From assembly GCA_017405785.1 (NCBI GenBank), contig JAFQZR010000001.1, positions 124,001 to 188,000 on the forward strand: 64,000 nt of DNA, written 5' to 3'. Shown piece after piece: positions 24,925 to 43,159 of this stretch (its first letter is position 1; the number at the start of each line of letters is the position of its first letter). A model generated the notes under the pieces. The model saw only the letters and a program-made list of their open reading frames with translations, had not been told where the DNA came from and did no database searches. Source of the stretch: Erysipelotrichaceae bacterium (GTDB taxonomy: Bacteria > Bacillota_I > Bacilli_A > Erysipelotrichales > Erysipelotrichaceae). The position numbers and the translations under genes were made by a program.

Positions 24925-25713
24925 ATGCCTTATTTACATATTCATAACATCGATCTTCACTATGAAGTGGTCGGAGAAGGATATCCGTTTATCTTCCTTC
25001 ACGGTCTGGGCAATGACTGCAGTCAGACCATGGAGATGTATAAGCCCCGGGAAAACATTCAGTGTATCTACCCGGAGCAGAAAGGTCATGGGCTGAGCAG
25101 CTGCGATGACCATATTACTTTTGATGATTTCACCAATGACATCATCGCCCTGGCGGATCATCTGGGATTACAGGAGTTTATCCTCGGGGGCATATCCATG
25201 GGTGCTGCTGCTACCATTCATACTTATCTGCAGTATCCTGAAAGAATCAAGGCTCTGATCCTGATTCGCAATGCCTGGGCTGGGGAAACCATGAACAGAG
25301 AAAACGCCAATCTTTTCATTGCCCTATCTGAAGCATTGAAGGAAAAATCACCGGAAAAACTGAAAGAATCAGAAGCTTATAAGGAATATTTATTAATCGA
25401 GGAAGAGACTGCTGTTTCCATGGTCGGCTTTTTCGAAGAGCCGGCAGCTCTGAGATATCCTGAAAAATTTGCCAGAATACCAGTTCAGGCACCGTTTGAA
25501 TCACTGGATGCTCTGAAGGAAATAAAAGTTCCTACTCTTGTACTTGCCAACAGGCAGGACAGCATCCATCCTTTCCACAGCAGCGAACTCATTCATGAGG
25601 CCATAAAAGGTTCCGTTTTCCATGAAATCGCCTGCAAGAAAGCTGACAGAAAAGGTTATTATCATGACCTTGACGTCTACATCAATGAATTCATAAATTC
25701 ACTTGAACTGTAA
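24925..25713 (+). CDS. Alpha/beta hydrolase
   Basis: A 262-residue alpha/beta hydrolase without signal peptide. The oxyanion segment FLHGLGNDC lies near residues 33-41, the nucleophile elbow GGISMGAA near residues 89-96 (Ser in GISMG), and the acid residue in LANRQDSIHPF. The last His of the triad is probably in YYHDLDVY. It may act on an ester or lactone. A strong AGGAGG site precedes the ATG. It is monocistronic and followed by a terminator that faces the RNA gene on the other strand. Confidence 0.85.
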   Translation: MPYLHIHNIDLHYEVVGEGYPFIFLHGLGNDCSQTMEMYKPRENIQCIYPEQKGHGLSSCDDHITFDDFTNDIIALADHLGLQEFILGGISMGAAATIHTYLQYPERIKALILIRNAWAGETMNRENANLFIALSEALKEKSPEKLKESEAYKEYLLIEEETAVSMVGFFEEPAALRYPEKFARIPVQAPFESLDALKEIKVPTLVLANRQDSIHPFHSSELIHEAIKGSVFHEIACKKADRKGYYHDLDVYINEFINSLEL

Positions 25714-25740: not shown

Positions 25741-25770
25741 AAGAAAAGAAAAAGCAGTCATTTCTGACTG
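25741..25770 (-). terminator. Terminator of the structured RNA
   Basis: On the minus strand CAGTCA-GAAA-TGACTG is followed by CTTTTTCTTTTCTT. The GAAA loop and the T tract fix the strand of the RNA gene upstream of it. Confidence 0.85.
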
Positions 25771-25915
25771 TTGAACTACCTATATGTGATCGTCGCTTGA
25801 GGAGGACGTTTTTCCTGTATGTAACGTCCTTAACCCGGACGATAGGTTATATATGTTAACGTTGTTTTCCAACGGTTTAAGGTGTATGTGAATCGGTCTG
25901 TTTCAACCGAGTAGT
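25745..25915 (-). ncRNA. Structured small RNA of unknown family, about 170 nt
   Basis: No gene is found between 25714 and 26062, but the minus strand carries a promoter, many paired elements and a terminator. The ends pair (AACUAC at 25916-25911 with GUAGUU at 25779-25774). Inside are hairpins UCGGU/ACCGA (25910-25906 with 25897-25893), CGUUG/CAACG (25874-25870 with 25864-25860) and an 8-base-pair AGGACGUU/AACGUCCU (25830-25823 with 25810-25803). A further arm pairs ACCUAU/AUAGGU and AUCGUC/GACGAU. CCUUAA (25882-25877) can pair with UUAAGG (25833-25828) as a pseudoknot. UCACAUA occurs twice in single-stranded positions. I see none of the signatures of tmRNA, RNase P or SRP RNA; 6S RNA cannot be excluded. 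Confidence 0.75.
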
Positions 25916-25917
25916 TA

Positions 25918-25946
25918 ATAATACCTGATTCAAAAACCTTTTGCAA
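25918..25946 (-). promoter_or_regulatory. Promoter of the structured RNA
   Basis: TTGCAA (25946-25941) and TATTAT (25923-25918) on the minus strand with a 17-base spacer. Transcription should start near 25911, at the 5' arm of the closing helix. Confidence 0.75.
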
Positions 25947-26008
25947 GAACTTTTTTACAAATTTTTAAACTTTTTTCTGCATCTTAAAAGTGCAGAAAAC
26001 TGACACGG

Positions 26009-26042
26009 AAAAAGGAGTTTTTCTTCGGAAAAACTCCTTTTT
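26009..26042. terminator. Strong bidirectional terminator with UUCG loop
   Basis: A 15-base-pair stem closed by a C(TTCG)G tetraloop, with poly-A and poly-T on either side. It separates the orphan EIIB gene from the RNA gene, so the RNA is not the 3' end of that transcript. Confidence 0.92.
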
Positions 26043-26062
26043 TTCCTATCTTTTCAGCCTTA

Positions 26063-28968: not shown

Positions 28969-30168
28969 CTAAATCAGATTCTTCTCTGTCTCAGCGTCAA
29001 AGACGTGGATCAGGTTAGGATTGAAGTTGAATGTGAACTCCTTGCCTAAGGAAACGCTCTCCAGATCGAGGTTGGCTGTCGGGATAACAGCTACGATATC
29101 GTCACCGTTGAGGTTGATGTGCAGGTGCACTTCGGAACCCATCATTTCTGATACTTCGATAACACCGGTGAATCCGTCTTCAGCCATTTCAATGTGAACA
29201 GGTCTGACACCGACGACAACTCTCTTTTCAGGTACATTGTTAGCCTTCAGGGCTGTCTGATACTTTTCAGCCAGTCTGATGCCTCTGTTCTGAATGGTAA
29301 TGTAGTAATCACCGTCTACGATTGATAACGGAATATTGTGGAAGAAGTTGATCTGAGGTGTACCGATGAAGCCGGCAACGAAGACGTTATCAGGATGGTT
29401 GAATACTTCCTGAGGAGTACCTACCTGCTGAATGAAGCCGTCTCTCATGACGACGATTCTGTCACCTAAGGTCATGGCTTCGACCTGGTCATGGGTAACA
29501 TATACGAATGTTGTGTCGATCTTCTGACGCAGTCTGATGATCTCGGAACGCATCTGGCCACGCAGCTTGGCGTCCAGGTTACTCAGAGGTTCGTCCATCA
29601 GGATGACCTGAGGCTGTCTGACGATGGCACGGCCGATGGCGACACGCTGTCTCTGACCGCCGGAAAGAGCCTTTGGCAGACGTTCGAGGATCTCAGTGAT
29701 CTCGAGAGTCTTGGCGGCCTCTCTGACCTTTCTGTCGATCTCGTCTTTCGGCAGCTTGGCCAGTTTCAGTGAGAAGGCCATGTTGTCATAAACAGTCATA
29801 TGAGGATACAGTGAGTAGTTCTGGAAGACCATTGCGATGTTCCTGTCTCTCGGTGAGATGACATTGGACAGCACATCACCGATGTACAGTTCACCTTCGG
29901 TGATCTCTTCCAGACCGGCGATCATACGTAATGTAGTGGACTTGCCGCATCCGGAAGGTCCGACTAATACGACGAATTCCTTGTCCTTAATGAACAGATT
30001 GAACTCCTGAACGGCTACAACGCCTTCATCAGTGATCTGCAGATTAGGAACGAACCCTTCTTCAGGTGGAAGATCCTTTGCCTTCTTGGCAGCTCTCTTG
30101 TTGGATCTGATCTCCTCCCGGGTGATAGGGTAGATCTTCTTGATGTTCTTTAATGTAATACTTGCCAT
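28969..30168 (-). CDS. MsmK/UgpC-type sugar ABC transporter ATPase
   Basis: A 399-residue ATPase with Walker A GPSGCGKST, the ABC signature LSGGQRQR, Walker B VILMDEP and the C-terminal regulatory domain typical of sugar importers (VGVRPVHIEMAEDGFTG). It probably powers several CUT1 importers. Compared with the usual family it has about 30 extra residues (about 14-45, rich in Lys, Arg and Glu) between the first two strands; the second ATPase at 50510 has a similar insertion. No Shine-Dalgarno site lies at the right distance from the ATG; the leader upstream is strongly structured (30176-30273), which suggests RNA-level control. Confidence 0.92.
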   Translation of the reverse strand: MASITLKNIKKIYPITREEIRSNKRAAKKAKDLPPEEGFVPNLQITDEGVVAVQEFNLFIKDKEFVVLVGPSGCGKSTTLRMIAGLEEITEGELYIGDVLSNVISPRDRNIAMVFQNYSLYPHMTVYDNMAFSLKLAKLPKDEIDRKVREAAKTLEITEILERLPKALSGGQRQRVAIGRAIVRQPQVILMDEPLSNLDAKLRGQMRSEIIRLRQKIDTTFVYVTHDQVEAMTLGDRIVVMRDGFIQQVGTPQEVFNHPDNVFVAGFIGTPQINFFHNIPLSIVDGDYYITIQNRGIRLAEKYQTALKANNVPEKRVVVGVRPVHIEMAEDGFTGVIEVSEMMGSEVHLHINLNGDDIVAVIPTANLDLESVSLGKEFTFNFNPNLIHVFDAETEKNLI

Positions 30169-30175
30169 GTGTTTT

Positions 30176-30273
30176 GCTCTGGCAGCTCAGCCTCCGCCTT
30201 ACTGCCTCATCTTAAACCGACACGAAGGATTTAAGACATTCTCAGTATGTCTCCACGATACTGACCCGCGAGC
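30176..30273 (-). promoter_or_regulatory. Structured mRNA leader of the sugar ABC ATPase
   Basis: Directly upstream of the ATG at 30168 the minus strand folds into three adjacent hairpins: UCAGUAU/AUACUGA (30264-30258 with 30248-30242), UCUUAAAUC/GGUUUAAGA (30236-30228 with 30218-30210) and GGCAG/CUGCC (30206-30202 with 30185-30181). A short GCUC/GAGC helix (30273-30270 with 30179-30176) can close the whole. The third loop contains GGAGG, which is 22 bases from the ATG. A fourth hairpin UACUGC/GCAGUA lies further upstream (30322-30317 with 30301-30296). The layout resembles a cis-regulatory RNA. An RNA motif upstream of msiK, the actinobacterial counterpart, is known. Confidence 0.65.
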
Positions 30274-30276
30274 CAC
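30199..30276 (-). CDS. Possible 25-codon leader ORF upstream of the ABC ATPase
   Basis: GTG at 30276 has a perfect AAGGAGG six bases upstream and opens a frame of 25 codons that begins MARGSVSWRH and ends FKMRQ, with TAA at 30199-30201. The stop falls inside the third leader hairpin, so a translating ribosome would melt the first two hairpins and part of the third. The frame could be real, or a by-product of a conserved RNA. It is 30 bases from the ATPase start, close enough for reinitiation. Confidence 0.4.
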   Translation of the reverse strand: MARGSVSWRHTENVLNPSCRFKMRQ

Positions 30277-30501
30277 GGTATTCCTCCTTTTCTTTTACTG
30301 CATAGGAAAGTGGAGAGCAGTATTTCAATCATATTATGACAAATTAAAGGCTGTTTGCCTTGTAAATATGTAAACATCACATGCAAAAAAAACTGAATTG
30401 ACTTCAAGAATAGAAAATCAAAACAGTAAAGTTCATTTTTTATTCTTTTGACAGTTATGGCAATGATATGCTGAAAATGGATTAAAAGGAGCTGTAATAA
30501 T

Positions 30502-41446: not shown

Positions 41447-43159
41447 ATGAAGACATCATGGGTCAGGAATATCATCATTCTGCTTGTTAGCATACTGATT
41501 GCATCAGTGCTCTTTTTTGCGGTTGTCTCCCTGGCCTACAGCAGAGTTTACCAGCAGGTTATTCTTAACAACAATAACAACGCTGCCTCCCGTTGGACTT
41601 CTTCCATAGATACCAGACTTAACACTATTTACGAACACGTATACGATCTTACCGTAACTATATACCGCAATACACCTATCAACGAAGGAAGCCTTCCTGC
41701 CGATTACCAGATAACTCAGACTCTGCAGGACAGCATGAACAACAAGATGATGGCTTCCAATGACATAACCTGTCTGTTTATTCTGGATAGTGAAAGTGAT
41801 CTGTTTCTTTATGTAAGCAACCCTAACCTGTCCCAGCAGATGGCTTATAACCTGAAATTATATACCAAATCATACTGTCTGGAATCAAACTCCCCTCTTA
41901 ACGCCCGTAAATGGGATCTGCTCAACCTGCTGGAACGCGGGTATTACTATAAGGCCATTAAAATGGGTAAATACATTATCGGCGCCATGAGCGACTGCTC
42001 ATATTACACTCCTGAGAACATGCCGTCTAACAACAATGAGAGCACTACCACTTTCATCAAGGGAGATCAGCGGATGGTTTTATGCAAAGGTGAAAACGAT
42101 CTGGATTACCTGATTGATCCGGACAGAACCGATGATTATTTTTATGGTGAATATGCCATTTCCACTACTGAACAGCAGTCAGCACTGGCTTACACCGTCT
42201 ATATAACCAAACCTCAGGGTTTCTCTACACCGTGGAAACTGGCTTCACTGTTTTTGATCGTCGACAGTGCCCTGTGCGTTCTGATGGTCGTACTGTTAAT
42301 TGCCAGCATGAACAAGTATGTCCGCAGACCTGTTAAGGAACTTGTCGAAGCCAATCAGGAACTGTCTAAAGGCAATCTTGATTATAAGCTTGATCCTGAA
42401 GAAGCCGGATCAGCCGAATTCGAAGAGCTCTATACCAGCTTCAACGACATGAGTTCCAAGATAGACCAGCTGACCATTGAATCATATGACCTGAAATTAA
42501 AAAGAGAAGAAAACCGTCTGAAGATGTTAAGGGCTCAGATGAAGCCTCATACCTTCCTCAACGGCATTACCACTATTTCCAATATGACATATACCTCCAA
42601 ACCGGAGGAAATAAGAGAATACATTGCTTCCTTTGCCAGATTTACCCGCTACATGCTGAATAAGTCCAACGACTGGACCACGGTACGTGAAGAGCTGCGG
42701 AACATCGAAAGCTATGTCAAGATGCAGAAGATCCGCTTCCCTAACAGTATTGAAATATCCTACGAATGTGATGAAGATATCATGGATGAAAAGGTTCCGT
42801 ATCTGGTCCTGTTCTCCCTTGTTGAAAACTCCTTCAAGCATGCCATGACCCTGGTAAACACCATGTATATCAGAATAAGCGGCAGCTATTATGAGGAAGA
42901 AGGATTTAAGGGAATTAAACTGATAGAAGAAGATAACGGTTCCGGTTTCTCCGAAAATGCACTGGAAAAACTGGCTGAGCCGGAACGGGACGATCTGTTT
43001 ACCAAGGAACATCTTGGCCTGACAAATGTACGCTACAGTCTTAATATGATATATAACAGAGATGACCTTTTAAGACTGTCAAATAAAGAAGAAGGCGGAG
43101 CCCGCATTGAACTGCTGATTCCGTCACAGGAGAAAGAAAATGAAACTGCTGGTATGTGA
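41447..43159 (+). CDS. YesM-like sensor histidine kinase
   Basis: A 570-residue membrane kinase. Two hydrophobic helices (about residues 7-29 and 264-285) flank an extracellular sensing region of about 235 residues; a HAMP linker follows (KYVRRPVKELVEANQELSKG), then the His_kinase region LRAQMKPHTFLNGITT with the phosphorylated His and an ATPase domain with VPYLVLFSLVENSFKHAM and DNGSGF. It is partner to the next gene, which it overlaps by 20 bases. In such loci the pair senses the external sugar or the loaded binding protein and activates transporter genes. Confidence 0.92.
   Translation: MKTSWVRNIIILLVSILIASVLFFAVVSLAYSRVYQQVILNNNNNAASRWTSSIDTRLNTIYEHVYDLTVTIYRNTPINEGSLPADYQITQTLQDSMNNKMMASNDITCLFILDSESDLFLYVSNPNLSQQMAYNLKLYTKSYCLESNSPLNARKWDLLNLLERGYYYKAIKMGKYIIGAMSDCSYYTPENMPSNNNESTTTFIKGDQRMVLCKGENDLDYLIDPDRTDDYFYGEYAISTTEQQSALAYTVYITKPQGFSTPWKLASLFLIVDSALCVLMVVLLIASMNKYVRRPVKELVEANQELSKGNLDYKLDPEEAGSAEFEELYTSFNDMSSKIDQLTIESYDLKLKREENRLKMLRAQMKPHTFLNGITTISNMTYTSKPEEIREYIASFARFTRYMLNKSNDWTTVREELRNIESYVKMQKIRFPNSIEISYECDEDIMDEKVPYLVLFSLVENSFKHAMTLVNTMYIRISGSYYEEEGFKGIKLIEEDNGSGFSENALEKLAEPERDDLFTKEHLGLTNVRYSLNMIYNRDDLLRLSNKEEGGARIELLIPSQEKENETAGM

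Follow-up and report, generated by a model that had tools for sequence, protein, structure and literature searches.

A narrowly distributed small RNA family of Erysipelotrichaceae outside Rfam 15, with regularly spaced ACAUAYA motifs

A stretch of 64,000 nucleotides from the genome of a gut-type Erysipelotrichaceae bacterium, referred to here as the window, carries on its minus strand the gene of a small RNA of about 165 nt. The RNA belongs to a new, narrowly distributed family that lies outside Rfam 15 and is of the sponge-like or redundant-site kind; its members so far come from three species of a single genus. It has its own promoter and terminator, contains no open reading frame and is independent of its neighbours, as befits a stand-alone small RNA gene. 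In the alignment with its homologues, conservation is highest in a repeated short motif, ACAUAYA, which is predicted to be exposed. In outline such a design is known, but not with this motif or in this host group. Small RNAs of the Erysipelotrichaceae have hardly been described, and only passing mentions were found in the literature on the family and on small regulatory RNAs.

The gene can be placed at 25911..25745 of the minus strand, with its start taken from the promoter spacing and its end from the terminator. A first-pass annotation, made from the letters of this DNA, had proposed a minus-strand promoter, TTGCAA-17-TATTAT, and this is indeed present at 25946-25918; transcription is expected to start at about 25911, seven bases past the -10 box. 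Immediately 5′ of the -35 box stands AAAAAAGTNC, the end of an A-rich, UP-element-like stretch (25947..25976, minus strand) recognised by blastn homology and by alignment of the upstream DNA with that of the relatives. The RNA ends in an intrinsic terminator with the GAAA loop that had been described, CAGUCA-GAAA-UGACUG followed by a T-rich tail (25770-25741, minus strand). The upstream EIIB gene has a separate terminator hairpin, also proposed earlier and found at 26007..26044 (strand not assigned), outside the RNA gene. Along the minus strand the order is the end of the EIIB gene, the EIIB terminator, the A-rich stretch, the promoter, the RNA and the RNA terminator; the convergent alpha/beta hydrolase gene (24925-25713, plus strand) ends 30 bp from the latter. 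No AUG was found ahead of the terminator hairpin in the approximately 140 bases scanned, so the RNA holds no small ORF, as the annotation had it. No inverted repeats of the kind found at mobile-element ends border the gene. Judged from the sequence, the RNA is probably expressed.

The RNA is built of successive modules, in which a short hairpin that opens and closes with CG precedes a single-stranded segment carrying U(U)MACAUAYA. Four ACAUAYA motifs are present in the window copy; they start at 25889, 25856, 25822 and 25787 (all elements of the RNA are on the minus strand) and are spaced by 33, 34 and 35 nt. Each relative has three, spaced by 35 and 36 nt; hairpin 4 stays there, and motif 4 is gone. 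Hairpin 1 (UCGGUU-GAAACA-GACCGA, 25893..25910) is followed by motif 1 (ACAUACA, 25883..25889, in UUCACAUACAC). Hairpin 2 (CGUUG-GAAAA-CAACG, 25860..25874), in which one pair is changed on both sides in the relatives (U-A to C-G), is followed by motif 2 (ACAUAUA, 25850..25856, in UUAACAUAUA), and both motifs are predicted to be unpaired. Hairpin 3 (CGUCC-GGGUUAA-GGACG, 25825..25841) competes in the window with an alternative fold, in which hairpins 3 and 4 give way to one longer hairpin by pairing of GGACGUU with AACGUCC. Motif 3 (ACAUACA, 25816..25822; UUACAUACA in the window, UUAACAUACA in the relatives) would then lie in the loop, and it is predicted to be unpaired in both alternatives. Hairpin 4 (CGUC-N10-GACG, 25791..25808; CGUUUC-GAAGCG in the relatives) precedes motif 4 (ACAUAUA, 25781..25787, in AUCACAUAUA), which is found in the window copy only and is absent in the two relatives.

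Dinucleotide shuffling of the three RNAs (20,000 shuffles) never gave more than two ACAUAYA in any of them. Within the 443 kb of this genome that were sampled, the cluster of the RNA is the sole one outside open reading frames; the other motif pairs lie inside ORFs, and a non-coding target site with paired motifs was not seen. The annotation had pointed to two copies of UCACAUA in unpaired positions as a sign of conserved contacts; this idea is borne out and extended, with the correction that UCACAUA belongs to an array of four ACAUAYA motifs (three per relative).

Between the window and the relatives, 29 of 30 motif columns are identical, compared with 34 of 44 in the stems and 30 of 57 among the other unpaired columns (motif versus other unpaired columns, Fisher p 1e-5). 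The predicted probability of being unpaired is 0.85-0.97 for the motifs, motif 4 lying outside the folded stretch, vs. 0.54-0.61 for the whole RNA. The predicted fold is stronger than chance, with z from about -3.1 to -3.6 (-3.45 for the gene as delimited here) and none of 200 shuffles equal to it. The alignment comprises three sequences, of which two are about 95% alike. Standard pairs fill 98.5% of its pair cells, a value as high in 17 of 500 shuffles and falling to 26-47% when slid. Only two pairs are changed on both sides, and 51 of 500 shuffles give as many. Three sequences are too few for a proof of the fold by covariation. Two features of the earlier fold were not retained: the helix of the two ends (AACUAC/GUAGUU) relies mostly on bases 5′ of the likely start site and does not occur in the homologues, and the pseudoknot CCUUAA/UUAAGG meets non-complementary letters in them.

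Homologues of the RNA were detected by blastn and with a covariance model in two genomes of the same genus, G003 and G005, with covariance-model E values from 1e-27 to 1e-22. The relatives that carry it are CAMOMM010000162 (a MAG contig of an uncultured Firmicutes) and SVBJ01000005 (Erysipelotrichaceae bacterium SIG225), and a pattern scan of genome contigs for modules 1-2 returned these two contigs only. By blastn, positions 25816-25976 of the window are homologous to the loci L110 and L112. The two relatives' copies of the RNA are about 95% alike; in coding DNA these relatives share only about 75-81% identity with the window. The covariance model, R1, was built from the three sequences and run on 273 genomes of the family and 316 of the order. 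Beyond G003 and G005 it found the RNA in no other of the 316 order genomes, and in the remaining six genomes of the genus the RNA is absent even with laxer filters. The RNA is thus carried by three of the nine genus genomes, and so it is not essential to the genus. It was not found on plasmids, and the matches in phages were all short and reached the promoter-side end of the query. The loci L035, L036 and L108 were considered as members and rejected at 22-26 bits; L035 and L036, which were inspected, have no motif array or retain few of the pairs. Viral contigs and the 316 genomes of the order gave further single matches to the module pattern, which look like chance and several of which are evidently in coding sequence; the model applied to the pattern-matched viral loci gave a best E of 0.28.

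In the relatives the RNA occupies a different locus: a glutamine amidotransferase gene lies on one side of it, and a 38-aa membrane ORF and a gene for a phosphodiester glycosidase on the other. The hydrolase-EIIB block is present in G005 too (HppA 94%, EIIB 86% and hydrolase 53% identical to the window), but its gap holds no RNA. The RNA is thus a stand-alone gene, tied to neither neighbourhood. The relatives' promoter reads TTGCAA-17-TAATAT, and in the window and the relatives alike seven nucleotides follow the -10 box before UCGG; promoter boxes, 17-base spacer and the seven bases to hairpin 1 are kept, and the terminators are swapped for unrelated ones in the same place. The earlier notion of an independent RNA gene is supported by these homologues at another locus, which share the promoter geometry and have terminators of their own.

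Some minor features of these loci may be recorded. The hydrolase encoded at 24925-25713 (plus strand) is 53% identical to the syntenic copy of G005, compared with 62-94% for most neighbouring genes. In the window, nothing but the terminator and the RNA follows EIIB, whereas G005 appears to have a small acidic ORF at that place (L109 10320-10500, minus strand). G005 also contains a perfect 15-bp inverted repeat with a 40-nt spacer (L110 8291-8360), located between its RNA and the 38-aa membrane ORF.

The annotation had recognised no known class in the RNA, and this stands: the models of Rfam 15 gave no match at the gathering cut-off, what they matched at E up to 10 was at chance level, and a search of the homologous loci in the relatives gave no match either. 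Conservation peaks in a single-strand motif at regular spacing, which points to a defined partner, and an array of identical exposed sites with unlike hairpins between them would be expected if one RNA were to bind the same partner several times over. Our analysis leads us to prefer, tentatively, the reading that this stand-alone RNA of about 165 nt is regulatory and that its motifs would bind several copies of one partner, probably a protein, as in an RsmZ-like sponge. Transcription would proceed from its own constitutive-looking promoter, the hairpins would act as spacers that hold the motifs single-stranded, and the motifs would be the working sites. Each motif, with the foot of the preceding hairpin, would bind one copy of the same RNA-binding protein, and one RNA could then titrate several protein copies, as RsmZ does with RsmE via GGA motifs.

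RsmZ, a 127-nt RNA, is the nearest design described so far; it holds several RsmE dimers through eight GGA motifs, which lie in loops and single-stranded segments (PMC12047976). The RNA studied here resembles RsmZ, RsmY and CsrB in being a short stand-alone RNA with its own promoter and terminator and a short motif repeated in loops and between hairpins. However, their motif is (A)NGGA and lies mostly in loops, whereas ACAUAYA lies between hairpins and conserved GGA loops are lacking. Repeated ANGGA loop motifs, the mark of CsrB and RsmZ, are not seen: the window copy has a loop GGA in hairpin 2 alone, and the relatives have none. A literature search found no binding protein for ACAUAYA, and none of the neighbours of the three copies (hydrolase, EIIB, GATase, NAGPA) encodes an RNA-binding partner. 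A broader proposal, which we regard as doubtful, is that the Bacillota have protein-sponge RNAs of a new class, in which hairpin-spaced UUMACAUAYA sites would titrate a sequence-specific RNA-binding regulator, in a Csr/Rsm-like circuit with a different protein and a different motif. The motif array can be used as bait to test for such a Csr-like titration circuit in Erysipelotrichaceae gut bacteria and, if the circuit is real, the motif would be a handle for finding the regulated mRNAs.

Multivalent binding could also serve mRNAs. The RNA would then be a base-pairing sRNA with redundant seeds, whose ACAUAYA pairs with UAUGU-containing stretches at mRNA start codons and blocks translation in the manner of LhrC; we consider this unlikely. 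Redundant unpaired seeds do have a precedent in LhrC of Listeria, an sRNA of low-GC Gram-positive bacteria with redundant unpaired UCCC sites (PMC4132741), and the reverse complement of the motif, URUAUGU, can contain a start codon. Both RNAs come from low-GC Gram-positive hosts and repeat the same short site in unpaired parts; however, the present RNA has no UCCC or CU-rich sites (UCCC occurs in none of the three copies), its repeat mismatches the Shine-Dalgarno sequence, and no target is supported. A duplex of -18.5 kcal/mol is predicted between the motif-4 linker and the start of a response-regulator gene at window position 43140, but 2.7% of shuffled linkers reach this value (uncorrected for four linkers) and the non-conserved motif 4 is used. 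At 340 gene starts, about a quarter of the genome, URUAUGU is not in excess over similar words and duplex energies are no better than with shuffled linkers. Since the complement is not enriched and the linkers do no better than shuffled ones, a protein, tentatively, is preferred as the partner over antisense pairing, which seems unlikely.

An improbable alternative is a cis-acting leader (attenuator or riboswitch-like) of a downstream gene, moved off its gene in the window species. The RNA of G003 and G005 does lie, with its terminator, just upstream of the 38-aa membrane ORF and the phosphodiester glycosidase gene and in the same orientation as these. In the window, however, the downstream gene is convergent and 30 bp away, so there is no cis control there and a leader function would be possible in the relatives only. 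Moreover, the repeated motif and the swapped terminators are atypical of leaders, and the predicted folds show no antiterminator pairing.

It is quite improbable that the locus makes no functional RNA and that promoter and terminator surround conserved DNA by chance. Few homologues and little covariation would fit such a view, but the same promoter geometry, the motif array and equivalent terminators recur at an unrelated locus in relatives with about 75-81% coding identity.

Tandem units of 33-36 nt with a fixed single-strand motif also recall type III toxin-antitoxin systems (ToxI, CptI, TenpI), in which the antitoxin RNA is cut into units by the toxin nuclease; the units of ToxI-type antitoxins are about 35 nt long. 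A remnant or orphan of such an antitoxin is nevertheless very improbable, as the units here are not near-identical, their stems differ, and Pfam analysis of the genes flanking the three copies reveals none that resembles a toxin.

The divergent 6S RNA that the first-pass annotation had named as the main alternative shares with our RNA the length class (about 165 nt) and an own promoter, but this identity is rejected as next to impossible, because a better 6S candidate lies elsewhere in the window genome and in seven other genus genomes, some of them without the studied RNA, because the RF00013 model gives no score at the RNA even at E 10, and because the fold is a string of short hairpins and not a long hairpin with a central bubble. 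The 6S-like locus G000:C9:99883-99985 (L261 384-486, minus strand) scores 36 bits, and counterparts of this candidate occur in eight of the nine genus genomes (33.9-40.7 bits), with or without the studied RNA. At its curated cut-off of 46.4 the Rfam 6S model appears to miss this lineage. Elsewhere in the window, a malK-I RNA (RF03069, 85.4 bits) was found at 30163-30333 (minus strand), at the start of a gene for a MalK-type ABC transporter ATPase (28969-30168, minus strand).
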